Shown piece after piece: positions 510 to 62,407 of a stretch of DNA of 64,000 nt. The DNA is from Xiphophorus maculatus (taxonomy: Eukaryota; Chordata; Actinopteri; Cyprinodontiformes; Poeciliidae): positions 9,479,291 to 9,543,290 of the forward strand of contig NC_036464.1 in the NCBI RefSeq assembly GCF_002775205.1, in the 5' to 3' direction. The notes beneath the pieces are model-generated. The model was not told where the DNA came from and did not search any database. It saw nothing but the letters and a program-made list of their open reading frames with translations. Each line of letters begins with the position of its first letter. The first letter of the stretch is position 1. The translations under genes and the position numbers were made by a program.

Positions 510-5506
<4,997 letters not shown>

Positions 5507-5626
5507 CTTCACCCTTTCTGAGCGCTCACTTGCAGGATTTCCTTATTTAATAACAGGGTTTGTTTGCCTTGTGAGAAGCTCTTCTATGAAGGGACACTTC
5601 CCAGAAGTGTTTTTGTGCTGGAGTCC

Positions 5627-12279: not shown

Positions 12280-15200
12280 ATGTATCCGGTTGGTGGGATA
12301 TCTGCAAGCATATACGCCAACAGGCTCCGGTCAGAGGGCATGGGTTCCAATGAGCAGGCCGTGCACTTTGCCAGCCAGGACTACGAGGCTCTGAAGCAGG
12401 AGTGCGTGGAGGCGGGCTGCCTGTTTGAAGACCCCTGCTTCCCCGCTGAGCCCCCATCTCTGGGCTTCAAAGAGCTTGCACCCTATTCATCTAAAACCAG
12501 AGATGTGGAGTGGATGAGACCCACGGTAAGAAAATATCAAGGCAAAGTTTATGCTGTCCTGTTGGTCGTTATTGGTGAATGATAACAGTGAGTGAAAATA
12601 AACTGCTATCACAGTATTCACAACTGTCAAACAGAAAATTAGTTAATCATTTTATCTATAGTATAATCCAGGGGTGTCAAAATCCTTTTCATTTTGGCCC
12701 GTATGAAGATCATAAATTATTCCTAAGGGCCATTTGTGGCTGAATGCATTAATAAAACTACATATTAAATTGTTAAAATATTATAGCTTTCTCTGTATTC
12801 AATGAGTACCTCTTAAAATTAAATAATATTGAACATTTTTACATACTCATATAATTTTACACTATAAAAATAAAAACTGATTTGATTTGACTGGTATAAT
12901 AATATTTAAGCATGCCACTATTATCTTGAAGTTCTATTTATGAGGCTCTGTGTCTTGAGGGCCACATAAATAGTTATGACGGGCCAGATCAGGCCCGCGG
13001 CCCTTTGACCACATGTGTGTTTGACATACGAGACATAATCTATTACATAAATCCATTCTAAAATGAGTTGTAGTTCTAAACATCTTTTTGTTCAAGATGT
13101 TTACAGCTTATCTACTTCTTCTTTTAATAATAAATCAAGTCTTAACAGGCTGGTGAATAAGTCAGACTACCTACTCTAGCTGCCAGCCTGCACGCTACTG
13201 CTTAAGAGGCTGCTTAAGTTGAAAATTGTGGTTTTAAAACAGTGATGAATGGGTCCATTATAGATTACACACCATGTCTATCACTGTTTTTTTGTAACTA
13301 GAAATTTGCCACATTTTCTGGTAAGTGAAGAAAGGAAGTTTTGTAGTCTTCTTTCAGCCAGCGGAATGGCAGTATGCCGCAACACTTACAGAGTGTTAAT
13401 AATCACTCTGTTAAGCCAGAGGAATTTTAAAATAATTATAAAAATAACTAATTAAGTTAGTAGAAAGAAGCTACATTAATTGAAAAAGTATATCTTAAAG
13501 AACAAAGTAATATAATAATTTTAAAAAACATAACTTTTTAATGTCTTCTTGTTGCCGGCAAACTGATGGCCAGGAATTTCAGGACAGGAATTTGATTTTG
13601 ACTGTTGCATGTAAGCAGGCATATCATGTCTCACTTTACATGTTGCAAACCTGGACAGAATCAGACTTGTAGGGACGGGCGCTTTGCAGACCTCTGCAGC
13701 TGTTGGCATCTCAGACCTCTCCCCTCTCTGACATTTGTTTACAGCTCCTTGGTATTTACAGAGTGAAACCTCATGGGAGGGTGGCAGCCAGAAAAAGAAG
13801 TGATTTCTTTGAAAGAGTTTGATTGTCATGACTCATTTCTGTTATCTTTGTAGGAACTGACAGGTGATCCCCAGTTTATTGTGGGTGGAGCCACCAGAAC
13901 AGACATCTGTCAGGGTGCTCTTGGTGAGTTATAAATTTGTTGTGAAAATAAGTTAAAAGAACATATTCTGATGTGAGGTTCTGGCCTCTGATTTTCCCCT
14001 CCAGGCGACTGCTGGCTCTTGGCAGCCATTGGCTCTCTGACCCTGAATGAGAGGCTCCTTCATAGGGTTGTTCCACACGGCCAGTCCTTCCAAGATGACT
14101 ACGCTGGAATCTTTCACTTCCAGGTTCTTTACTTACAATTTTCTACCCTTCCTTTTTTTTTTATTCCTATTCACGCAAACTCGATGGATCTCTTTTTTAA
14201 TGCACTGCTTTGCATTGCAGTTCTGGCAGTTCGGCGAGTGGGTAGACGTTGTGATTGACGATCGATTGCCTGTCAAAGACGGAGAGCTCATGTTTGTCCA
14301 TTCAGCTGAGGGCAATGAATTTTGGAGTGCACTCTTAGAGAAAGCTTATGCCAAGTAGGTTTGAAAAATCGCTTGCATTAGTTTGTTCAGAGGGATATTC
14401 TGAAGTGTTGCTGCTAAAAGCAATTAGTCTGAAGGTTTTTTTTATTTGCTATCAGGCTAAATGGCTCCTATGAGGCTCTCTCTGGAGGAAGCACCACCGA
14501 GGGCTTTGAGGATTTCACAGGGGGGGTGTCTGAGATGTACGAGCTGCGCAAGGCTCCCAAAGATCTCTACAGGATAATCAGTAAAGCCTTGGAGAGGGGC
14601 TCCCTGCTGGGCTGCTCTATTGATGTAAGTGTCGTTTGCGCCTATTCATCTAGAACGGCAATTTAATTCTACATTATAAATTTCTGCTCACATGCTCACA
14701 GATCACCAGTGCCTTCGACATGGAGGCTGTGACCTTCAAGAAGCTTGTGAAGGGCCATGCCTACTCTGTCACTGCATTGAAGGAGGTTTGTCTCTCTGCA
14801 ACTCGGTCAACACAAAGCATTAAAGTTGTGGTTTGACATTTCCTCACCACTTTGCTGTGTGACAGGTTGATTACGCTGGCAACATGGTGCGCCTTATCCG
14901 AATACGTAACCCCTGGGGCCAGGTGGAGTGGACTGGAGCCTGGAGTGACAAGTGAGTGTATTCAAACTTACAGGTCCATCTCAAGATGTGAATTTATTTC
15001 TGTACTTGAATCCAAAAAGTGAAAGCTGTATATCATGTAGATTCATTAAACACATAGGGCATATTTCAACATGTGTGTTTTCCTTTTGCTAAACTTTCTA
15101 CTCACATATTTGGGGACTGCACCCTGTGAATACCCATCTTGATTAACAATTATCATATGTGACTTATCGTCCTTGTAGAGGTTATTGCTGATTGTCTCAT

Positions 15201-18200
15201 GGACATCTGTTATTGTAGCATAATAGGCCATAAAATCACACTCTTCTACAGATTTTTCTTAATTGTAATGCAATATCATTATTTTATGAGAAACTAAATT
15301 TCAGGTTTTCATGAGCAGTTAGTCATAATCATCTAAGTTTAACAGTTGTAAAACCTGAAATATACCACTCTTTGCAGTAAATCTAATTATGAGTTTCAAA
15401 TTTAGAATTAAACCAGTTAAGTCAGTGATGTTCAGATTTATTGAGATGTACCTTTAAATTTTGTGAACATTTAGCTTTAAAGGGTTGTTTCTTATGTCAT
15501 GTCTGTCATTCATAGTTCCAGTGAATGGGATGAAATTGACCCATCTGAAAGGGAAGACCTGCATCTTAGCATGGAAGACGGAGAGTTTTGGTAAGATTTA
15601 CATCTTCACATACAACAAGAAGTTAAAAGGAATAATATACATTTCTGTTTGGCAAACTGCTTGGTTTCATACAACACCCTCCAGTGTCTTCTCTCATAAA
15701 GGTTTATGAAAAGCCTTAAAAATTATTTCATGTTGCATTGCAATTACGTAATCTGGCACTGAAAAAGTCAGAAAAATAAAATCCTATTAATTTAACATAT
15801 ATTGAGAGGAGAAGACAGTTTGCTGAAGGACTTCATGCCTACTGTTAAGTACAATGGAAAACCTATAATGCTGTGAGCCCTAGATAACGTTGCTGGGCTG
15901 CATGTTATCATGAACTCTTTAAAATATCAGGGCATTTGAGTAAAATCTCTAGAACTCAACAAGAAAATTGCAAATTGAATAGTAGATTAGCTCCAGAGTA
16001 CCTAAATCCAGTGCTGGAAACCCAATGCCCTGCAATTTTTAGATACATCCCAGCTTCAACACACTTGAGTAGCCAAACATTCCTTTCTCTATATGATACA
16101 AACTTGTAAAATGTCACAGGAAAAGATTTAGCTTCTCCATTGTCAAAAAAGAGGTTTGCATAATTGCGACAAGGCAAAGAAGTGTGGCACTGGTGATTTA
16201 TTTAAAAAAAATTTTTATCATGATTATTTCTTAATGTGATTCAAACTAATTTAATCTAACTTTTATTGAAATTGTTTGCACAGTGTAACAATGTTTCTGG
16301 TTTTTTGGGGGGATTCAGGATGTCCTTCAGTGACTTTTTGAGGCAGTTTTCCCGACTGGAAATCTGTAACTTGACTCCGGACGTCCTGAGTGAGGATAGC
16401 CTCAGTCACTGGAACACTATGAAGTTCTACGGCACATGGAGGAGAGGCAGCACGGCCGGGGGCTGCAGGAACCATCCCAGTGAGTCAACAGCAAAAATCC
16501 AAAAACATGTAGCAGAATATTAACATCAGCGTTCCTTCACGGTCATGAAGAGATACCACCAGTGTGGTATCTGGTGTCATTTTCCTGATCCTGAAGGAAA
16601 AAGAAAATTTAGTAGGACCAAATTTTCCCAGACTTTTTCTTCAGTCTTTTTTCCTAAAGGACAAATGTCTACTGGTGCTTAATAAATGCAATGATTTTAC
16701 ATTAATATCTTTGAAATTTAAATTTCTTATCTTTGATTTGCCCCACAGCTTACTGACTTTTAATTTATTGACTAAATGTGTACAAGTTGCAATCAAAATA
16801 GTCCCATTTTACTACCTTTGTAGTCTCTGAAACAACTTTAAAAATGTGTTGATATGGGTTTATAAATCACTGAATGGGTATGAGCCAAAATTCTTGTCAA
16901 GTATAGCCCAGGATGAGCTTTTAAAGTCTTCAGATACTTGCTGACTGCTTTCCCAGAACTGGAATCGAACAAGATGTGGCAGCATTTAGTTTTGCTCCTA
17001 AACTCTTGAACAAACTCTCTGAAAACCTGACATATCCAGAGAAACTGCTGGTTCTTTTGAATCAACAAAATATTTAGTTCACTGAAGCTTTTGATCAAAA
17101 AGTCCCAATAATGAACTGCTTGCCCAATCAGTGAAGACAGTATTCAGTTTTTCTAAGGCGATTAATCTGTTTCAAATTTCTTATTAGGAGTTGTTCCTAT
17201 TAATGCTGTTAAGTGTTTGACATGTTGCTCTCTTTTTAAGCAAAGCTTTAAGGTTTTTTGTTCTGTTTTTAGTGTTTTCCTTTGATGTGAAATTAAATCA
17301 CTTTTGATTGTCTTGTGCTTGGTGCTAAAATACAAATAAACTTGCCTCGCCTTTTATTCAGGTTGAACAGAACCTGTAGTGCTTAGACTGTGTCTAAAAG
17401 TTCTAATAAATTAATAACAACAATTTTTTTTTATTAAAAAAACAGCTTGGAATTCTGGAGGGAAATTTATACTAACAAAGACACAAAATTAACAAAGCTT
17501 TTCTTTAAAGAGTCTGCTTAGTCCAAGGGTTATAGAGTTTAAAATAGGGCCAATTTAAGTAGTTCCAGATGCAAAAAAAGTAGTTGCTGTATACCACACT
17601 CAGAAAATCACAGGCCAGTCTCAGCATTGTGTTGTTTCAGTAGCACTGAAAACTAAAAATAATAAGAGATGCTTACTGTTCAAAGTCCAGATTTCCATAA
17701 GAATTCTTTTTTATAAATATGTAAAAGTGGCTATGTGTAGAAACTCAATAAAATGTGTAGGTTTTCACAAAACTGGCTTGACATAAATGCTCCATTTCTG
17801 TAGACACATTTTGGATAAATCCTCAGTATAAGATCACGTTGCTGGAGGAGGATGATGACCCAGAGGATGATGAGGTGGCGTGCAGTTTCCTTGTAGCCCT
17901 CATGCAGAAGGACCGGCGCAGATACCGACGCCATGGTCAGGACATGCACACCATTGGCTTTGCTGTCTATGAAGTGAGAACCATGATGAACTGCATGGAT
18001 CCCCTCTGTTCTGCTCCTGTAGTTTATTAAAAATGTCTGCTGCCTCATGCCACCCATTAACAATCTTCCCTTCTGTTCCTTTTGCAGATTCCAGAGGAGG
18101 TAGGTACAGGATCCCTTATTGAGAACCTTATTACTTGTTACTCATTTGGCAATTTTCAAAATATAGCTTCACATATGCAAGATGAAGAGTTTCTTTTAAA

Positions 18201-20325
18201 GGTATGTGTTGGGATTACGTACATGAAACACCGCAACAGAAAAACATTTTGCATTCATTTACAAGAGCTCCTTAAACTGCAACCAAACTACTCACTAAAG
18301 CAACTCAAATCTTTTAAACACACCTGGCAGTGATCAGTGCATTGTGTTATATTATTTGACATGGAAATATGAAAATCCATGTTAAGTCATTTGTCTCCTG
18401 CTGTCCTCAGTACAGAGGCTGCCAGAATGTCCACTTGAAGAAAAATTTCTTCTTGAGTAATTCATCGTGCGCTCGATCTGAGACCTTCATCAACCTTCGT
18501 GAAGTGAGCACTCGGCTGCGACTGCCGCCCGGGGAGTACCTCATTGTGCCCTCCACCTTCGAGCCTGGCAAAGAGGCCGACTTCGTCCTCAGGGTTTTCA
18601 CCGAAAAGCAGTCAGAGACAGAGTGTGTCTTTTTTTTTCTTTCATTTTCATCATTAGCACAATGTAGGAAGGGAAATCTCATATTTATTTTTTGTTGCAG
18701 GGAACTGGATGATGAAATATCTGCTGATTTTGGAGATGAGGTGTGCATCAAGGATGAATTTCTCAAACCTCTTCTTTTTGGAACTAATTGTTTGAAGTAT
18801 ATAGAGCTCTGATTTTTATGTTTACTTTTTGTCTTGCAGGAGGAAATAACGGAAGATGATATTGATGATTCATTTAAGTCCATGTTTGCCCAACTAGCAG
18901 GAGAGGTAACCTGAAATTTAACGGAATGGTGTTGATAATTGTAGCATTTGGATTGTTCTCAGGTGTAGAACCTTATTAAGCAAAAAGCAGGATTTTAATG
19001 CAGTTAAAAAAGAACATGGATCTGGTACTGCTATTTTTTTTCTTTCTTTGTGGTTATACAGGACATGGAAATCTCTATTCGTGAGCTCAGGACAATTCTC
19101 AACAGAGTGGTCACCCGACGTGAGTTTTCTGTTTAGTAATTTTAATGTTCCTGTGGAGTCTTATCAGTTTGTGTATAGTTTGTGCACCAGTTTTCAGACT
19201 GTTTACAAACTGTAGTGTGTCTATGGTTTATCAATAAAAATCACAATTTTGCTGTTTCAGACAAAGATCTAAAGACTGATGGCTTCAGCATAGAATCATG
19301 CAGAACCATGGTCAATCTGATGGATGTATCCTTATGACCTATTGCATGAAAATAAACTAGTTAACTCCAGTTCTGCTGGTTATATTTTTGGAAAATGTGT
19401 GCATTTGTCAGCATAATAATTGCCTCCATGTGTCATTTGCTGCCTTAACACGTACTTTGCCAGAAAGATGGCAGTGCTCGCCTGGGACTGGTAGAATTTC
19501 AGATCCTGTGGAACAAAATCCGAAAGTGGCTGGTAAAAATGAGAAAAATGGGGGTGTACTCTTAATCCCTTTGTTTTTATTCACATTTTTGCCTCTTTAT
19601 TTTCCAGGTCACTTTCAGAGAGTTTGATCTTGACAAGTCAGGAGCCATGAGCTCATATGAGATGCGACTCGCTGTGGAAGCAGCAGGTCTAATGTTCACA
19701 GCTTTCTTGTTGACATTAATACTTTCAAGAAACATAATGATTTCATATTTTAAACCTGTACTATTTCTCTGCGCAGGCTTTAAACTGAATAACCGGTTGC
19801 ACCAGATTCTGGTGGCGCGGTATGCAGAGAATGAACTGATTGATTTTGATAACTTCATCTGCTGCTTGGTCAAGCTTGAAGCCATGTTCAGTGAGTAATT
19901 CTGCACTAAATATATCCAAACTTCAAACACCTGAGTTTTGCTCAATTGATTAATCTCAATATTAGGACTATCGCACAACTGCTGGCCTACCAAGGCATGA
20001 CTGTCCATCTACACTGACTGAATCAGCAAAGAGAACTATGATCAGGGTTTTCCATTGATCTATCACATAAAATACTTACTTGTGTGGTTAAAACTTAAAG
20101 TTTAGATGCAATACAGCTAGTGTTGCAAAGCAACTTAACCTTCTTAAATCTTTCAATTTAACAGGGTCTTTTCAGCAGCTAGACAAGGAGGGATCAGGAG
20201 CTGCTGAGATGAATCTCACAGAGGTGAGTGATATTGTAAAAAATATATTATTTAAAACTTTTGTTGTGTCTAACTTTTGTTTCTGATTCTTTTTTCAGTG
20301 GCTTTATCTGACCATGTGTGGATGA
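12280..20325 (+). CDS. capn11: Calpain large (catalytic) subunit, CAPN11-type (CAPN1/CAPN11 group), complete
   Basis: Calcium-activated cytosolic cysteine protease, 704 residues from 21 exons: 12280-12525, 13854-13923, 14005-14123, 14221-14354, 14456-14624, 14702-14785, 14866-14951, 15516-15590, 16319-16479, 17804-17973, 18088-18099, 18411-18622, 18701-18740, 18840-18905, 19062-19119, 19261-19325, 19464-19532, 19608-19686, 19777-19890, 20165-20223, 20299-20325. Catalytic Cys108 (GDCWLLAA), His265 (GHAYSVT) and Asn289 (RNPWG) are all present. The CBSW domain has a strong acidic loop ([10 protein letters not shown]), and a full penta-EF-hand domain ends in [30 protein letters not shown] and the terminal TMxG resemble human CAPN11. 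Adjacency to mrpl14 and tmem63b matches human CAPN11 at 6p21.1. Exon 11 is a 12-nt microexon and intron 16 is U12-type. The paralogue at 510-5506 is divergently oriented. The calpain identity is certain; the CAPN11 rather than CAPN1 name rests on synteny and a few motifs. Confidence 0.93.
12669..13032. mobile_element. hAT-like non-autonomous element in capn11 intron 1
   Basis: The left end caggggtgtcaaaatcc pairs with the right end tttgacatacgag as a decayed terminal inverted repeat. Flanking 8-mers gtataatc (12661-12668) and acataatc (13033-13040) look like a target duplication diverged by two transitions. Internal ggccc-rich ends are typical of this teleost family. No transposase. Confidence 0.65.
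15591..16318. other. capn11 intron 8, no recognised content
   Basis: AT-rich intron between exons 8 and 9 with no transposon or exon that I can identify. Confidence 0.55.
16480..17803. other. capn11 intron 9, no recognised gene
   Basis: The largest intron in the 3' part of the gene, about 1.3 kb. It contains a perfect 9-bp snap-back repeat at 16551-16572. The stretch 16840-17350 (ending near tacaaataaacttgcctcgcc) reads like an old retroelement 3' tail but is too decayed to name. Confidence 0.4.
19326..19463 (+). other. U12-type (minor spliceosome) intron of capn11
   Basis: The 138-nt intron starts GTATCCTTAT, the U12-type 5' splice-site consensus. It has TGCCTTAAC (19441-19449), a near-perfect U12 branch-point motif, with the branch A about 15 nt before the 3' CAG. 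No long pyrimidine tract is present. It lies between exon 16 (ending Leu-Met-Asp) and exon 17 (starting Lys-Asp-Gly) in the penta-EF-hand region. Confidence 0.85.
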
Positions 20326-40400: not shown

Positions 40401-43400
40401 TGAGACTTCTCATATGTAAGCCAAGAGGTCAGTTATTGGACTTTATTGCTTAGCACTGTTCCAACATATATATTTTACCTACTCTTAAGTATTGGCTTTA
40501 CTTAAGAGTAAAGCCAATACTTTACTTGTGGGTATGCACAATATGCAATCCATAGGTGTGCTGTGCTACAGAGGGCACCCAAAACAGTGGTGTAAGAATT
40601 ATTTCTAGTCTGGATTTTCTGTATTTAACAGCTTTGTGCATGTGTAAATGATGTGATCGATATAGTAGGGAGTAGGGCGAAGGATAAAGACTTTTTAGGG
40701 ATGAAAAAAGCTTTTCAATGTGGTTAAAAGACATTGGTAAGACAAGGTAAGTCATGTCAATCTATCATGACTAGGCTTGTGAATGTTCAGGTTAGTTTGA
40801 GTTACCGGTACAATGACAGGTCATGGTTGTCCTGCAGCTGTGTGCTGAATTTATAATGTAAGAGATTACAGTAGGAAAAATATTAATTTACTGTAAAGAC
40901 AATAATTATTTGTTTAACTAGATGGTGAGTTATAAAACATTCTAGAACGTGGCAGTGATGCACTTGAGTTAAAATGTCTTCCCTCAATATAACACTGCAG
41001 TGCTGTTGTGATGCATCCAGCATCCACCTGGATGGACCACAAATTATATAATTTTAAATTAAAATGTAATTTTTTTATATGTGTTCTATTTTTTAAAGAA
41101 CAAACTTACCACAAAGTTCATTTCATTCAGCTGTGAGGGTGGAGAGAAAAAAGAGAGAAAGAATCAGGACAGACAGGGAAAGAAACAGGTTGGTCTGATA
41201 TTAGGCAGAAGTGTATGAACAGCCAATGTATCCCATGTGATATATTTAAAAAATACTTATTTAAAAAAAAAATGTATTAGCAAGGTCTGTAATTTGCTTA
41301 AAGCTATGCTTGTTTGACCATCTGACTTAGTACAGAAGGATACGGGTTTGACCCAGTTAGCATTGATGTCTATTGAAAACAAAGTTGCATTCAGTTTCAT
41401 TTGATGCCATTTTTGACAAAGGTGAGTGCAAAAGGCTGACTTGTAACAATTTAGTTAGATGTTCAGTATGCACCTCTGGGCTTTAAACTTGATTGTATGC
41501 AGAGGTAAGTAGTAGTAACTAGTAACATTTACTCAGTTACATTTTCTTGAGTAATCTGTTAAAAAAAAATACATTTAGCCATAGTTTTACTTCGATGTGC
41601 TTTTCATTTTTACGTTGGTAATAGTATTGTGAAGTATTGCTACTTTTACTTGAGTAAAATTTCTGGATCCTTGCTGTGAGTAACTTTGCTTAATGAAGAA
41701 CAAAACACGTTTTAACCAAAAATGCAAGAAAAAATGTAATTTAACTGAGCTGTTTGTTGGCTGACAAAGATCATTCATATCCAGTTTGGGGCAAATCTAA
41801 TCTTGCATGTGTGATTTAGAGCAAACCGTATGAAAACGATACTGGAAATGACTGCTCGTCACACCCATGTGGTCCAGCCAGCAGTCACACTTCACAGTAG
41901 TATTGAGGATCACCTTGTTCTGTGTGATCAGACACCTTGTGAGTCAGAGTTTGAGGGAAGGACACCCACCAATGAAACATCTCACTTCCTTTCAGCGTAT
42001 TGAGAGCTGGTCTGCGATGACATGTGCAAATTATTTGACTCGTTTTTTATTTTGGACAGTCAGATTTCGAGACTTGGACATGCCCACGTGCTTTTGATCC
42101 ACCAAAACCCACTGTTAGCTGCCTAAAAATGTCTTCAGACTATACTGAGTGTTTGTTCTGAGTTATTTTGAAGTATGTTACTAAAACCTGCGGAGGAGTT
42201 CTCTCACATGCCACTTCAGTACAATAGACAAAATGGCTGACTTCCTGTGCCATTTGGACCATGGCTCCAAGATGCCTTTTTTGTATGATCTAAGGAGTAA
42301 CACATGTGTGCTGATTTATATAATACCCAATCAGATCACATAAAAAAAAGAAATGTTTCTAAGGTTTTGTGGAGGAATTAGGTCATGTCTGCCAAATATT
42401 TGAGTAAAAATCTGTTCAATCATTACTGTCACTACAAATCAGTGGTCACAAAATTTCTGTATGAAAAACATATTTGTATGGGTTTTACCTAACTCTCTAA
42501 GTTGCTTTGAGGAACTGATTTTTTAAAAATATTATATGTAATCCATTACCATCAAATTTAACAGATATAAGCATTTCCTGATGTATAAAAAATGCATTTG
42601 ATTCTAAAATTTCATTTTCTGCATTGAATGACTAAAACTATCTTGTATTTTAATTTATTGTGATGGACTTGTGTTTTCTTCTTATAGGAAGAAGCTGTGA
42701 GTTATTATGCCAAGCTGGAGGCACAATTAAGGGATGAATACAGGAAAGAGAGAGAGAAAGTTAACAAGAAGCCTTTAGGAATGGCCTTCGTCACTTTTCA
42801 AAATGAGGCCACAACTGCCAAGTAAGTTCATTTAGATAAGTGAAGACATGTTTGTCAATTTGCTTCTGAACTGCTGAAATTTGTTAGTCGTTTTTACTGC
42901 AATGTGTTTTTTTGTTTTGGTTTTTTACTTTGGTTTGTTTTCAATCGCTGGATCTTTGTCTGTCAGAATTTTAAAGGACTTTAATGCTTGCAAGTGCCAA
43001 GGCTGCTACTGCCGTCGTGAACCCAAGAGCTCTCAGTTCAGCTCCAGGCTGCACACCTCCAACTGGACCGTCACTTACGCCCCCGATCCACAAAACGTCT
43101 ACTGGTGAGAACAAACACTTTTGTCACAGAAGGAAAACAATTGCTGGGTTTTGGCTGTTGTGATTAGTTCACATGCCAAGTATTAATCTAAATGCCACAT
43201 TAGAACTTTTTTGGGGAAAACTCTTGATAATGTGGGTGTTTTTTTAAACTAGCGTATTAGTTTTCTGGCCAGCTGTGTCCATCTCTGCAGGTTATCACAC
43301 CGTGTCTGCCTCACCGCTGTGTGACCCCTTTTCCCACAGGGAGCATCTGTCATTGGGAGGATTTAAATGGTGGGTCCGCTGCTTCATCATCAACTGCGTC

Positions 43401-46400
43401 CTATTCCTTCTCTTGTTCTTTCTGACCACCCCAGCCATTATCATCACCACCATGGACAAGTTTAACGTCACCAAACCAGTGGAGTACTTAAATGTAAGTA
43501 TCCAAAGCTGATCTGTGGGGGTCTCTTATTTTGAAAAAGTAATTTAATTTAAAATCTTCCTTCCCCAAGTCTGGAAAAATACACTTAAAAAAAGAGTTTC
43601 TAGGTTTTGTACCTTGATATATTACCTTTTCATCAGACAATTATCTTATCATTATACACTGTTGAAATGCTGAATCCAAATCCTGTCACAGCTCTCCCTT
43701 GTTTCAGAGGTTTAGATAAAAAAAAGAATAAGAAAATCCAAACATCCAACTTTTTTTGTTCTAAAAAAGTACACAATTTGTAAATGGAAATATAGAAACA
43801 CTGTTATAATTTGCCAGCACTTTCAGGCATGGGAGTGTCTCAAGACAATTTTGAAACACGTTTACTCACATGCCTCAGATTTGTATCTATTTAACTGAGG
43901 GTATTGTAGTGACCTCTAACATTTTTATGTTTTAGTCTGCACCGTAAAACGTGACATACAAAAAAATTACAAATATAGTAATTATCTCATATTATCTCAT
44001 ATTCTCTCATGAGAATGTGAATAATATTTTTTAATGAATAACTATAGAAAGAAGGTGAATAGCTTCAATTATATTTAATTATATTATTTTTTTTACCTTA
44101 GTTTATTTTCAGTTGTCATTTACCATATGTTTCATCACAAATAGAGAAAAAAAATATCCTTTTTACATGACATTTGGCCTTCAGGTTATCTTAGATTAGA
44201 GTTTTAAACTGGAACCATTTTTTTATTTATTTTTTTTTATATTTGGTCTGGCTTAAAACCAACAGGTAAATGTCAGTCAAATAGATTTAAATACTAATGC
44301 CTCACTCATGTCTTTCTGATCCCAGAACCCCATCGTAACCCAGTTCTTCCCCACCCTCCTGCTGTGGTCTTTCTCGGCTTTGCTTCCCACCATTGTCTAC
44401 TACTCCGCTTTCTTCGAAGCCCACTGGACCCGGTATGTTTATTATTCACTACTTTCAATTCTTCTGTTTTCTTATGTATTTGAATTTTAGGAGCATCATG
44501 TTTTAATGTGTGTGAATGGTTAATGTTGTTTTACAGGTCAGGAGAGAACAGAACCACAATGCACAAATGCTACACTTTCTTGATCTTTATGGTCCTGTTG
44601 CTGCCCTCCCTTGGACTCAGCAGGTGTTACATGTTTTATTTTTTGCTTTGCAACAAATTATTAATATGTAATATAAGGAAATAATTGTAGACCTTTTTTT
44701 TATATTTTTGAGCTAATGTCTTTCATTCATTTTTGCAGTTTGGATGTTTTCTTCCGCTGGCTTTTTGACAAAAGTTTTTTGGATGAAGCTACAGTGAGGT
44801 TTGAGTAAGTATGGTGGGCTTGGATTTTTTTATGCTGGTTTTGATTTTCCTTGGATGTAAAACTTGCAAACAAGTATTAAATAAACATCATACCCAAGCT
44901 TAGTGTGATGTGGAAAATCAGTGGGATTGTTGTGATTCCAACTTTACAACAGAGGGTTAAGATAAATTGGCCATAGAGGAGTGAAGTTTTGCTAAAAAAA
45001 AACCTCAAATGTTTTAATTTCACATATTTTTTCAAAAATATGTTGGATATTCTCAGTTGAGTATATCCAACTTTAAGTAAGTTTGGAGAAAATATAAATA
45101 AAATTCTGCATGATTAAAGGCATAAATGGTAAGACTATTTGAAGGGATGTGCATTAGACCAACATGATGTGTCATTTGGTAAATAATGACACTTTTAATG
45201 CAAAGTTTAAAATTTTAATAGGCTTTTAATGCAAGTACAAGTTCAACATTGCTTTGAAAGTGTCATTATTTACCAAATTAAGCAAAGTTACACTTTTAAT
45301 GAATAAATACAAGACAATACGACAAATAAAGCTTGTACAGTATTAAGAGCTTCACTGGTCAAATGAGATGCAGTCAGTCAGGATACTGATTAATGAGTTT
45401 TGGCTTGAAGTTCTCCCTCCTGTGTTTAAATGCAGATCGGCCATTTTGGGTGTTGAAATTTTGACTTCTCTGAGACTTTTAAAGTCAGAATTCCAGCATC
45501 AGGAGTTGTTTTTGTTTTATTTTTAACTTGAAACTGGAGCTACCGCTATTCATTAAAGTGTTTGATGACGTGAACTTCAATAATCCTTCATCAATATTTG
45601 TAGGCTTTGCATCATTTTCATTCAAAAATGTATGTTTTGTTCTTTTTCTCTTGGGATTTTTATAGGTGTGTGTTCCTCCCTGACAATGGAGCCTTCTTTG
45701 TGAACTACGTCATTGCTTCTGCATTCATTGGTAATGCTAACGACCTGTTGAGGATCCCCGGTTTACTGATGTACATGATCCGCCTGTCCTTGGCTCGCTC
45801 TGCAGCCGAGAGGAGGAACGTGAAGAAGGTCAGTCTTCAGCATATAAATCCAAACGAGACACACTGAAAATAAGTTTTTACATGATCTGTTTTTTTGTTT
45901 TTACAAAAAGTTAGATGTATGATAAAAAAAAAGAGTAAGAAAAAAAATGTATTTTGTTTGTTTGTTTTTAGCACCAAGCTTATGAGTTCCAGTTTGGGGC
46001 AGCTTACGCCTGGATGATGTGTGTCTTCACTGTGGTTATGACCTACAGCATCACCTGCCCAATCATCGTCCCATTTGGTGAGTCGTACTGTTTAAACTCT
46101 GTGCACTGCTCACTCCGTCTCATTTTCTCATCGATAGAGCACACTGATCAAGTGGCTGCAGGTTAGGCATGCAGAGGCCAGGCCACATGCAGGGGTTCTG
46201 TTCTGTGTCCAGAAGCTTATCTACAGGACTAATTGGATTAGTTTGCTGACTTCCTTGTCTTTCTTCCTGTGCAGGGCTGATGTACATGCTGCTGAAACAC
46301 CTAGCAGATAGGTACAATATGTACTATGCCTATCTGCCAACAAAACTGGACAAGAAGATCCATTATGGAGCTGTTAACCAGGTGGTGGCGGCTCCTATCC

Positions 46401-52055: not shown

Positions 52056-54976
52056 ATGGACGAGGGACTGACTATTACTTGTATATCTGTAGCGATGTTT
52101 GTGGGCACCTTCCTACTAGGATTCATCCCACTGTTGTTCCGACTCTCTGAGGTAAGTATGACTTTAACTTCCTCGTTAAACAAGGTCAGCAGGCAGATTT
52201 ATCACGGCTGGTTTAAATAAGTCCTCTAATATAGTTCAGTTCATAGCGATGATGCTCTTTCAGGGCCAGTCAAAGATTGAGTGGAGCCCAAAGCACGAAG
52301 TGACTAAGGAACCCATCAGCCACCAAGGCAACACAGTGCTTAATTTTTTCCAAGTTGGGTATTTACGGCTATTTTGTTCTTGCACTGATGTTGAGGGTTT
52401 AGCTGCTTAATGCGACCAAATTTATTTTGTATTTGCGGATTCACCATTTGCAGATATTTTGTGGAATGTGACTCCAAGTTATTTGCAGAAAACCCCACCT
52501 ATTTGCAGATTTTTCAGCAGAGCATGTCTAAAATACTCAAAAGAATATGCAACTTGGAATGCAAAAATACTTGACACATTATTGGCTGACACATGCAAAG
52601 CAATCAATCAATCCAGCAGCACCATTCATTTTCCATGGTGCTGATTGGTTGTACTCCTAAAGCTGAAATAAAAAAAAACTGTAGATATTAGCTTCAGAAC
52701 TATTAGATTGGGCTGTTATTAATGTTTTAGAGGGGTCTCAAATATTTTTGAATATTAGCAATGGCTAACTTAAACCGCCTCACATGACCTGATGTCTCAA
52801 TATACTACATTAGATTTTTGATAGGAAAACAACTGAGTGTTTTTGAATTTTGACCTTTCCTCCTGACAGAAAAGCCTGCAGTTTGTGTCCATCCTGGGGG
52901 CGGGTCTGCTGTGCGGCACAGCGTTGGCCATCACCATCCCAGAGGGTGTGGGCTTACTGGAGGATTCGTGGAGAGGTGAGCTCACTGTTTGAAATTTAAA
53001 GAAGCTGAATTGCACCACTCTACCTTCTCTCTCCCTTGTTGTCTTGACAACAGATGTGATGTGATACAGTCCATCTGCTCCCATCAAATTTGCATGAGTG
53101 TTTCATCGTAAACCATTTAAATCATACCTGAAAGCAGGCTCACCTGTCTGAACGTTGTCCCATCGCCTGCTTTGTTGTCCCATCCTCTTGTCTTCATCTT
53201 CTCTTTGCAGAGTCTTCCTCTGATGCTCCATCTGGTCCGAATGCTAGTGAAAAAACGGCGCCTTCCACAAAGGGAAGCGCCCCACCTCGCTTTTATATCA
53301 GCGTGGCTTTGACGTTCGGGTTTACCTTCATGTTTGTTGTTGATCAGATTGGAGGATACATTTCCACGCGTGGCAAGTTTAAATAACTTTCACTTTACGC
53401 TTCATTTTATATCAAGCTTTCCAGTCGTATGCTGATAATTTAAACACGTTTGGTTTCAGGTCAAGCAGCACATTTGTTGAATAACAAACACATCACAGCC
53501 ACTCTGGGGCTAGTTATCCATGCTGCAGGTATATTAATCAAATATCCTCTGGACATTCACTTGCATAAGTATTCATATTTCTTAAAGTTTTTTTTATTTT
53601 ATTTTGTAAAATAAAAACTTCCATGTATTTTATTGGGAAGTTGTGTGACAGATAGAGCAAAACAAAGTAGGGCATATTTGTGAGGTGGATGAAAAAAGAA
53701 AAAATTGCACACCAAAATAAATTCAGTATAACCAGATGCATTCAGTCCATTTGTGTGTAATTTTGTCGCTGTATAAATCCAGCTGCTCTATGAAGGTGTA
53801 ACATATTTTTCTGAGAATATTAATAAATCGACAGCATATTGGAGGCCAAGAAACACATGACAGCAATAACACAATTCAATCCATCATTTGAAAACAGAAT
53901 ATGAAACCATTTAATGCCTAACAAGACATAACTGAAAACTGAAAACAGTTTTACTCTGACAAAATGTTTTGCAAACCACTTTATCTGCTGGTTTGTATTT
54001 GCTTAAACTGCAAAGGGATATTCGGGACAAAAGCATGAAAAATTTCCAACAAAACCCAGTTATTCATTCCTTCATGTGACTTATCATGGGATTCCTGCAC
54101 TCTGTGAGATCTAAGTCTCATTTAGCATGGCTAAGAGGCTTTGCTTTCAAATTGCTTAAACAAACATTTGCTGAGTTGAGATATCGCTTAAACCCACATT
54201 AGTGCACATTATAAAATCACATTAACCACTTTCTTAAATATTGGCTGTGATTTATAATAACAATAATAACTCTTCTTGCACTCTTCCAGCTGATGGATTT
54301 GCTCTGGGCGCTGCCGTCGCCACAGGTCAAGCCACTGTACAAGTGATTGTTTTTTTTGCGGTCATTCTACACAAGGTGAGAGAAATTGTCAGCTGGAAGA
54401 AGATGTAGACATATTTAATAAGATGTGACAGAACTGATGGCATCTGTGTTTTTTTTTGTTTGTTTGTTCTTTTTTCTTGACTTACAGGCTCCTGCTGCTT
54501 TTGGTTTGGTTTCCTTCCTGATGCATTCAGGCCTTGAGAAGAAAGACATTCAGGGACATTTACTGACCTTCTCAGCAGCAGCGCCCATAGTTGCTATCAG
54601 CACTTACTTCATACTGCAGGCGGTGGGAGAGAACACATGCTTCACATTGGTAAGGGTCACATCTCTGCTGTCTGGTTCTGACCTGTTGCATGCTTGTGTG
54701 TGTGTTTGTCGACAGACTGGAAGTTCCTCTCATAACCAGATGAATGCAACAGGAGTGGGAATGCTGTTCTCAGCAGGAACTTTCCTTTATGTTGCCACGG
54801 TGCACGTTCTCCCTGAGATCAGCAGTAGCAGCGCAGCAGAACCCTTCTCTAACCTGCAGGAGGAAACAGGAGCAGAAACCCACAAGGCAAGACATCTGGG
54901 GCTCCTGGAGAGCCTCACCCTCATCCTCGGTGTGGGGCTCCCAGTCATATTGGCCCTCAGCTTGCACGATGACTGA
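52056..54976 (+). CDS. slc39a9: ZIP9-type zinc transporter (SLC39A9-like), complete
   Basis: Zinc importer of Golgi and plasma membranes in the ZIP family; 313 residues (human about 307). Exons: 52056-52151, 52870-52975, 53211-53372, 53460-53528, 54290-54375, 54488-54649, 54716-54976. Start ATG has a good context (gtcgccATGG) and gives [14 protein letters not shown]. Conserved family blocks: [20 protein letters not shown], the metal-site helix [14 protein letters not shown] (His142, Asp146) followed by [17 protein letters not shown] (His172), and [25 protein letters not shown]. Oddities: the cytosolic loop between membrane segments 2 and 3, histidine-rich in human ZIP9, has no histidine here ([17 protein letters not shown]). 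Exon 3 ends in a GC donor, and the last intron is only 66 nt. The divergence suggests it may be a teleost duplicate rather than the canonical slc39a9. Confidence 0.92.
53575..53830 (+). mobile_element. Tc1-like transposon relic in slc39a9 intron 4
   Basis: 'acttccatgtattttattgggaagttgtgtgacagatagagcaaaacaaagtag' is a diverged copy of the terminal block of the recurring family. 53830-54280 is AT-rich intron without recognisable content. Confidence 0.55.
54650..54715 (+). other. slc39a9: 66-nt in-frame, stop-free last intron of slc39a9
   Basis: Donor TTG/GTAAGG and acceptor GTCGACAG/ACT bound 66 nt (22 codons) with no stop in the reading frame. Retention would therefore insert 22 residues before the NATGVGMLF helix. 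The spliced form matches human ZIP9 spacing better. Confidence 0.75.
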
Positions 54977-59505: not shown

Positions 59506-61191
59506 TTAGAGTTTGATTCTGCTCATGGAGGCAGTCAGCTTAGCCTCTAGGGCCATCTGGTGGAAGGTCCGGCTGTGTGTCTGCTGCCTGACCCTGTCCC
59601 TCAAGTGAAAGGAGGCCTGCACCAGCCTCTGCGCCTCCTCCTGCATCTGCTCCCTCAGCTTTTGCAGCCTCTCCCTCTTCCCCTCCTTCATGCAGACGTA
59701 GCTCTCTCTGCACCTCCTGCTGGCCTCCTCCTCTCTCTGGATCTTCTCACTCAGCTGCTGGTGACAGAGCTGTCTGTGTCTGCTCTGTTCTCGTCTCTGC
59801 TGAGTGCGGCTCCTGCGCAGCGCCGAGGCGTTCTGGGCGGCTCTCTCCATGCGACGCTGACTCTGCTGGACCAGGATCTGCTTGTGTGTGAGCTCCTGGA
59901 CACTCTGCAGCTTGGCCCTCATCTGTGCTCTTTGGATCTGGACGTCCTGCACGGCAGCTCGCTCCCGCAGCCGCCTGTGCTGTGCCTCTGCAGCTCGGGC
60001 TCGTTTCTCGGAGGAACGCTGCAGCTTCTTCTCCAGCAAATTCCTCTTCTGCGTTTCATCTTCCTCCATCTTCTGCTCTGCTTGCCTCTTCAGCAGGATG
60101 TGACACAGCATCTCTCTGTGATTCTCCTCCTGCAGCTTTTTCCGCTCCCTCTTCTCCTGCAGCTCTCTGGTCCTCCAGGCCTTCTCCTCCTTCTCTTCTG
60201 CCGCCTGCTTCTCCTTCTCAAGCTCCCTTTTCTCCAGCTCCATCTTCTCCCTAAGCAATCTCTCCTGGTATTTTTTACGCTCCTTTGCCTCCTTCAGAGC
60301 AGCCTCCAGCTTTTCTCTGCGTTGTACCTCAACCACTTCCTTCAGCTTTCTCCATTGGTTCTCCTGGAGCAGCATCTCCTGCTGGAGCTGTGCTGCTTTC
60401 TCCTGCTCCAGCCGCAGCCTCAGCCTCCTGCGGGCCTCCAGCTCCTTGTGCCAATGTTTCATCCTCTGCTTAAGCCTCCTCCTTCGTTCTTTTTCTGCGT
60501 GGGCCTGCCTGGCCTCCTCCCTCCTGCGGGCCTCCTGCCGTTCCTGTTCCTCCTGCTGACAGAGCTTCAGGCGCTCCTGCTCCTCCCGATGCTTGACCAG
60601 CATCAGAGCTGCTATCTTGCGATCCCTCTCTGACACGGTGATGCATGTCTTCCTCTTTATTTCTGAGGTGATCTTCTGCAGTTTCCTCTCAGCAGACGGG
60701 GAGTATCTCAGATCTCCCAGACTGAAGCTGCTGATTGTGCTCCTCTCTGGGTCTCTCTTTGCAGAAACAGAGGAACCGGATTTTGCTTTGAAGCAAAGGT
60801 CTGCATAGACAACTGGCTCTGCTGAGTGATTCTTCACCTTTGGTACAACTTCAGAGCTTGAGGCTGCATTACTTCTTAGGCATTTGCTCCTTTCAGCTTG
60901 AATAATCCTCTCCTGCTCCTTGCTGGACACAGGCATAGGGAAAAGCTTTGATCGTTCCTTCTCGTATGATTCATGCAGAGTCTTCATGGCCTCATAAGGA
61001 GCAGCCTGCTGCCCTGCAATCAGCTCGTTCAGAGATCTAATTAGCAGCTGAACCGGTTTAATACCTGGCTGAGTCCTGGACTCCAGCGAGTGGGGACTTG
61101 TTATGACGCCGCTGCTCTTACCAGGTCCAGGCGGTTCAGAGAGGTTCACATCCAGACAGAGAGCAGGTGAACTAGACCTCAATTCCTCCAT
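59506..61191 (-). CDS. ccdc177: Coiled-coil domain protein, probably CCDC177, intronless
   Basis: Single open frame of 561 residues; biochemical role unknown. Residues 1 to about 160 are low in regular structure. They contain YEKERSKLFPMPVSSKEQER and then DLRYSPSAERKL near residue 160. From about residue 190 (SERDRKIAALMLVKHREEQERL) to 530 the chain is an almost unbroken Arg/Glu/Lys/Gln-rich coiled coil. The C-terminal ASFHLRDRVRQQTHSRTFHQMALEAKLTASM segment departs from that pattern and looks like a family signature. The start at 61191 is the only ATG before the frame closes. Human CCDC177 is also a single-coding-exon gene (about 700 residues, from memory) and lies close to SLC39A9 at 14q24, matching the neighbour here. 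A 357-codon frame on the opposite strand is a shadow caused by the biased codon composition. Confidence 0.8.
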   Translation of the reverse strand: MEELRSSSPALCLDVNLSEPPGPGKSSGVITSPHSLESRTQPGIKPVQLLIRSLNELIAGQQAAPYEAMKTLHESYEKERSKLFPMPVSSKEQERIIQAERSKCLRSNAASSSEVVPKVKNHSAEPVVYADLCFKAKSGSSVSAKRDPERSTISSFSLGDLRYSPSAERKLQKITSEIKRKTCITVSERDRKIAALMLVKHREEQERLKLCQQEEQERQEARRREEARQAHAEKERRRRLKQRMKHWHKELEARRRLRLRLEQEKAAQLQQEMLLQENQWRKLKEVVEVQRREKLEAALKEAKERKKYQERLLREKMELEKRELEKEKQAAEEKEEKAWRTRELQEKRERKKLQEENHREMLCHILLKRQAEQKMEEDETQKRNLLEKKLQRSSEKRARAAEAQHRRLRERAAVQDVQIQRAQMRAKLQSVQELTHKQILVQQSQRRMERAAQNASALRRSRTQQRREQSRHRQLCHQQLSEKIQREEEASRRCRESYVCMKEGKRERLQKLREQMQEEAQRLVQASFHLRDRVRQQTHSRTFHQMALEAKLTASMSRIKL

Positions 61192-62407
61192 TGTAAAAGG
61201 AACTAGACCTCAGTTCCTCCACTGGTTGAAAGTCTCTTCTGCTCAGGAAGGCTGCTGAGCTGAGCGTCTGTCCAGCATATGGAGCTGGTGATCCCCAGGT
61301 GATCAGGGGATTAGCTGATCACCTGACCTCTCACTGTGTGGGATGGATTTATTATTTTGATAACACCCAGGAGGAGCTACAATGTTGATTAAATAGCCAA
61401 GGACATTTATAATTCTAACATAGGTTACCAACTTTTTGGTACAACAAAGTGGGAATTAATCTCAGTCAATATCCCAGGAAATGTGTTTTTAAATTATGTA
61501 ACTTGACAAATCTGCATATAAACACTTTACCGGTTACTTTAGTTTCCATGATCTGACAAAGAAACTCAGAAGAAAAACTGATTGCAATCTGGTAAGGGAA
61601 ATGTTTGGTTACCATGACAACGGATCAGCAAAATCTAAATAAACACCAGCTGTCTGTCGCATCGGGTTCTCCTTTAGCACCATCTAGTGACTGTAATCAC
61701 AGCAATTGAGCTGGATAGGCAACAATGGTTTCAATAAAAACACAAAACAAAAACATCAAAAACAGAAAAACAATGCGAACAATCAGACCTTTGCCCTAGA
61801 GTGGCAGGATGGACATAGAAACCGCTTGAAAAAGTGAGTGTGGCCTTTAAACAGGTAGCCCATGATGAATGGGTTAATATTTTAGCTATATGGAGAACAT
61901 TACCGAAGAATTCTCAAAACATTTTACCTAAGTCATCAAACTTAAATGGCAATCCTGCCAAATACTAGAGAAATTTTAAGTACACCAGTCCCTCCTGCAA
62001 CAAAACACCCACATAACATGTTTCTGCTGCCTGCAATACATAACTTTTACAATGGTGCTCGAAAACTGGCTGGTTTCCCCCTTTTTGTCTAGCTAGCTTT
62101 AGTAATACTGGACCACAGGATATGGCTATAAAAAATAAAGGTCCTTGTTCCTTTGTATGGACTAATGACTTCTTACTTGCTGAGTGGCCTTTCAGTCCAT
62201 TTTAGTGTAGAACGCCTGGGCAGGAGGCCTAGAGGAAGACCAAAAAGGATATAGATCTGGTGAAAGAGGACCTGAAGTTGGTTGGCGTGAGAGTATAGGA
62301 GGTTTGCAACCAGATTCTGACTATGAGAAACCAGCGACCTCTTCCCAGTGTCAGAATCTCACCGTGGAAGAAACTGCATTAGGTTTTCTAATATGCGTCC
62401 TATAGTT
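61192..62407. other. Intergenic region, nothing recognised
   Basis: 61192-61340 probably includes the 5'UTR and promoter of the coiled-coil gene. It contains a direct repeat of about 20 nt: the aactagacctca-ttcctcca block at 61169-61190 recurs at 61201-61220. 61780-62400 looks like old retroelement sequence (around 62210-62330, 'aggaggcctagaggaagacc') but could not be named. Confidence 0.4.

Follow-up and report, generated by a model that had tools for sequence, protein, structure and literature searches.

A U12-type intron in the second EF-hand of a capn11-like calpain gene of Xiphophorus maculatus, and its counterparts in calpain small subunits, sorcin and grancalcin

We have little hesitation in regarding intron 16 of a capn11-like calpain gene of Xiphophorus maculatus as a genuine U12-type intron, one that would be removed by the minor spliceosome, that would have been inherited from an ancestor of the calpains, their small subunits, sorcin and grancalcin, and that, if retained, would lead to a truncated calpain. 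Its splice signals, its position, its conservation in this genome, three minor snRNA genes and the stop codon that it contains are observed directly. The gene lies in a stretch of 64,000 nucleotides on contig C22, referred to here as the window, in which the following features are placed.

12280-20325, plus strand: capn11-like calpain gene, first to last coding base; 21 coding exons, 704 amino acids
19261-19325, plus strand: exon 16; its final codon is that of the first Asp of the EF2 loop
19326-19463, plus strand: intron 16 of 20, assigned to the U12 type (GT-AG); 138 nt, phase 0
19326-19333, plus strand: putative U12 donor GTATCCTT; 8/8 to RTATCCTT
19335-19337, plus strand: in-frame TGA, fourth codon of intron 16; the retained product would end NLMD-VSL-stop
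19441-19449, plus strand: putative U12 branch site TGCCTTAAC; 8/9 to TTCCTTRAY, presumed branch A at 19448
19461-19463, plus strand: acceptor CAG; the next codon, AAA, is the K of KDGSARLG
19464-19532, plus strand: exon 17; 23 residues
21317-21703, minus strand: mrpl14-like open frame with Ribosomal_L14 (E 4.6e-14); synteny marker downstream of capn11

Splice signals of intron 16

What sets intron 16 apart from an ordinary intron? U12-type introns begin with the donor RTATCCTT and carry a branch site close to TTCCTTRAY some 9-20 nt from their 3' end; they need no pyrimidine tract. Scored against this consensus, intron 16 (start GTATCCTTATG, end TGCCTTAACACGTACTTTGCCAG) has a perfect donor and a branch site with a single departure, and the presumed branch A lies 15 nt from the intron end, within the expected range. 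The intron is inserted immediately after the codon of the first Asp in the EF2 calcium loop. An earlier note had proposed a U12-type intron here, with a branch A about 15 nt from the 3' CAG and a location in the EF-hand region. Its coordinates prove exact, the distance is that from 19448 to 19463, and the location can be narrowed to the interrupted EF2 loop.

Dinucleotide shuffling of intron 16, repeated 20000 times, put a perfect donor at the very start of the intron twice and gave a branch match as good as the real one at 9-20 nt 206 times. The ten-base donor word GTATCCTTAT, which begins at 19326, occurs 237 + 244 times in the 704-Mb assembly as against 451 + 421 times for the reversed word. 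It is not enriched genome-wide and alone says little; the case therefore rests on the combination of signals and on the relatives.

How does intron 16 compare with the other introns of the gene? It alone of the 20 has both an 8/8 donor and an 8/9 branch match; elsewhere the best branch match is 7/9 (introns 3, 6, 9 and 19). We also scored the donors with a small, home-made log-odds matrix, in which 13 relatives of the same intron (window left out) were set against the other introns of this one gene, and which is to be read for ranks only. At +11.2 bits the donor of intron 16 ranks top, followed by that of intron 14 at +5.9, with the remaining 18 below 0. The statement of the earlier note that the other introns read in capn11 look U2-type holds, intron 14 being the one near miss. 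With the donor GTAACCTGA, intron 14 (18906-19061) reaches 6/8 for the donor and 6/9 for the branch, its pyrimidine fraction before the acceptor is 0.80, and in the five relatives in which it was placed (L039, L041, L042, L047, L049) it has ordinary U2 donors. The U2-like acceptor and the U2 donors of these relatives rule it out as a second U12 intron.

A scan of the window for donor, branch and YAG together returned 6 combinations at 5 donors, intron 16 included. The four other donors include one at 41343 minus; at the three inspected by eye, 39568, 44154 and 58999 minus, no coding exon ending there was recognised. One of the two combinations at 44154 ends at a true tmem63-like exon start, 46274; it was rejected, the donor of the upstream neighbour exon being ordinary (GTGAGTCG).

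Are the RNAs that would read these signals encoded in the genome? Among the candidates scored there is one match each above the Rfam cut-off for the U12, U6atac and U4atac RNA genes. The U12 gene contains GTAAGGAA, the word that faces the branch site and, by eye, is complementary to TGCCTTAAC with one mismatch; the U6atac gene contains AAGGAGAG, which faces the donor, this pairing likewise judged by eye. The donor, the branch, their spacing, their uniqueness in the gene, 13 other loci described below and the snRNA genes together support the assignment of intron 16 to the U12 type.

The capn11-like gene and its neighbours

The 21-exon coding sequence, assembled by reading the boundaries and checking the translation, is a single open frame of 704 codons. 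In a comparison with the PDB, residues 5-703 of the product align with solved calpain large subunits. The top match is a "mu-like calpain" entry and the next is calpain-1, the calpain-1 and calpain-2 matches being nearly as long as the first; CAPN11 itself is absent among the PDB names matched. Downstream of the gene are the mrpl14-like frame and, at 43-46 kb of the window, tmem63-like frames, of which 1/4 is above the Pfam cut-off. Since MRPL14 and TMEM63B flank human CAPN11, the name capn11 given by the earlier note is a reasonable one: full-length similarity to the mu- and m-type calpains places the gene in the 1/2/8/11 group, and the name itself follows the human synteny.

A second calpain gene may stand head to head with capn11. 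Calpain-like frames were seen by eye on the minus strand at about 940-5542, this neighbour runs on into L049 (C22:9474500-9480500), and its homologous U12-type intron (GTATCCTCAATT) lies just beyond the window edge. Two exon-18-like matches are also present in L049, where they may represent an exon or a gene remnant.

Beside the capn11/tmem63 block lie a ZIP zinc transporter frame (window 54422-54976, plus strand) and a DUF4659 frame (window 59506-61209, minus strand), which we take to be ccdc177-like. As ZIP transporter and ccdc177-like genes are not known as neighbours of human CAPN11, the junction that joins the block to these two frames is likely to be lineage-specific.

The same codon boundary in relatives

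If intron 16 is of the U12 type, what stands at the same codon in related genes? A 109-residue EF-hand query returned 41 matches in the genome; 17 stretches and the window cover all but one (C19:177322, E 4.7), and more distant penta-EF-hand genes may be missed. Exons could be placed around the homologous site in 15 loci, namely the window and 14 stretches; L055 has no match to exon 16 or 17, so no site was placed there. In 14 of these 15 loci (window included), which comprise catalytic calpains, calpain small subunits, sorcin and grancalcin, the intron at this codon boundary starts GTATCCT, positions 1-7 invariant. Apart from L047, the following loci were identified by PDB likeness; the remaining relatives were placed solely by their likeness to the exons of the window.

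L043: calpain-3-like gene (calpain-3 comes second after the mu-like calpain entry)
L045: calpain small subunit
L047: placed with the calpain small subunits by its peptide, near-identical to that of L045
L051: grancalcin
L052: sorcin
L054: divergent calpain-like gene

Thirteen of the 14 GTATCCT loci were scored. All of these have an acceptor compatible with phase 0 and branch matches between 6/9 and 9/9; the distance from the presumed branch A to the intron end is 9-18 nt, L040 having two possible acceptors that give 7 or 10 nt. The 6/9 matches of L040, L043, L049 and L051 are no better than those of many U2 introns of capn11. The intron of L054 was read by eye (CGTCTTAAC). The exception among the 15 is L041 (C5:186000-192000), perhaps a decaying copy: its donor is GTGTCCTTC, its exon 17 contains a stop codon, and its branch-like sequence reads ATCCTGAAC. 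The control set consisted of 56 further introns, drawn from the 14 relatives with L041 among them: GT stands at the homologous place in 56/56 and RTATCC in 0/56. Read from these loci, the putative U12 intron is family-wide rather than special to capn11.

In L046 (C18:4932500-4938500) we observed by eye tandem repeats of about 80 bases within the U12-type intron, shortly before its acceptor (oriented positions about 1780-2140).

Where does the family with this intron end? L053 (ALG-2-like) and L050 (peflin-like), which from their motifs we take to be ALG-2 and peflin, have no intron at the calpain/sorcin codon. Each has a phase 1 intron with a U2-type donor (GTAAGTAAC and GTGAGTCGC respectively), and the exon that follows it starts 11 nt before the U12 site. 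Because these two genes lack an intron at that codon, the putative U12 intron marks, within this genome, the branch of calpains, sorcin and grancalcin, which with the small subunits constitute penta-EF-hand group II. The upstream U2-type intron might represent an old shift with a change of class, or the two introns might be independent.

How did so many genes come to share one intron? We propose that the ancestral gene from which calpain large and small subunits, sorcin and grancalcin descend already had a U12-type intron at the EF2 codon, and that gene duplication would have carried it into all of them, with no gain in capn11. Since the intron is shared by 14 of 15 loci, whereas in the ALG-2-like and peflin-like genes the nearby intron is U2-type and lies 11 nt further upstream, it probably predates the split between calpains and sorcin. 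The other way to arrive at this distribution is parallel gain at a hot-spot in several penta-EF-hand genes. That the area holds more than one intron position is plain from the ALG-2-like and peflin-like genes, but codon, phase, class and the first seven bases are identical in 14 loci, for which descent is the simpler account, and U12-type introns are rarely gained in vertebrates. We consider parallel gain very improbable.

Could intron 16 instead be of the U2 type and owe its U12-like donor and branch to chance? Donor and branch occur together at the correct spacing only in intron 16 of capn11, and the seven-base donor common to the 14 loci is absent from all 56 of the neighbouring introns. 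These facts outweigh several that such an intron would equally display: GT-AG ends, a pyrimidine fraction of 0.65 before the acceptor, where the other introns span 0.50-0.90, and a fit to GTRAGT that introns 3 and 18 (3/6 and 2/6) do not better. A U2-like intron may even have a GTATCC donor, for another intron of the peflin-like L050 starts GTATCCATG yet has a long pyrimidine tract before its CAG; GTATCC by itself is insufficient for the U12 class. Donor, branch and paralogues taken together lead us to reject chance resemblance, which we judge to be very improbable, and we retain the reading of intron 16 as an inherited U12-type intron.

Splicing, retention and known systems

How would such an intron be handled by the cell? 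U11 and U6atac would read its donor and U12 its branch site; the minor spliceosome would then excise it, joining the first Asp of the EF2 loop to the remainder of the loop. Left in place, intron 16 would present its TGA after three extra codons. As read-through gives V-S-L-stop, the calpain would be cut off inside EF2, and the mRNA that retains the intron is likely to be a target of NMD. Of the 14 introns that begin with GTATCCT, 13 carry an in-frame stop; that of L054, at 131 nt, shifts the reading frame. We infer that capn11 depends on the minor spliceosome; the class of spliceosome that cuts the intron, the recourse to NMD and the age of the intron beyond this genome are likewise deduced from these sequences.

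That calpains are among the protein families encoded by minor-intron genes is already known from PMC8767276, and in kind the capn11 intron is an ordinary one. According to the same source, the minor intron of Capn2 ("intron 14") is retained at an increased level in rat cardiomyocytes upon U6atac knockdown. This is likewise a minor-class intron of a calpain gene, although it belongs to another paralogue and another species and is numbered 14 rather than 16. Numbering may differ, and the two introns likely occupy the same site. Vertebrate calpain evolution is covered by PMC4043111; the word "intron" is absent from its main text. "Calpain" is absent from the main texts of PMC6717393, PMC10639083 and PMC9120149, and where CAPN3 comes up in PMC9636908 and PMC8283771 it is in other connections. 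In the titles, beginnings of abstracts and passages of the open-access papers listed we found no statement of a minor intron shared by penta-EF-hand genes, which may still have been reported.

In human genes, PMC10853796 gives U12-type introns at 3.5% of calcium-binding (CaBP) exons as against 0.2% of zinc-binding (ZnBP) exons. There, as here, U12-type introns are associated with exons for calcium-coordinating residues; that figure is a human total, unlike the single site of the present case, and the terms calpain, CAPN and sorcin are absent from the main text. A single ancestral EF2 intron of the U12 type, retained by almost all descendants, might tie an entire calcium-sensing protease system, from catalytic calpains and their small subunits to sorcin and grancalcin, to the minor spliceosome and also explain much of the human excess, a proposal that we offer as conceivable but on balance doubtful. 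Were it true, the two subunits of the calpain heterodimer would fall together when minor splicing is lost. The shared intron offers common descent as one reason for the surplus of U12-type introns at calcium-binding exons, in place of selection acting on calcium-binding codons, and it predicts a co-ordinated loss of calpain activity in models of minor-spliceosome disease.

What began as a note on a single gene becomes a statement about a family: one minor intron, at one codon, in calpain subunits, sorcin and grancalcin. What is added to earlier knowledge is apparently this shared and seemingly ancient site in the catalytic and regulatory subunits of calpain, in sorcin and in grancalcin. Minor introns have likewise been kept, at shared sites, in a paralogous family of proteins unrelated to calpains, the voltage-gated sodium and calcium channels. 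These channels are among the families named in PMC8767276.
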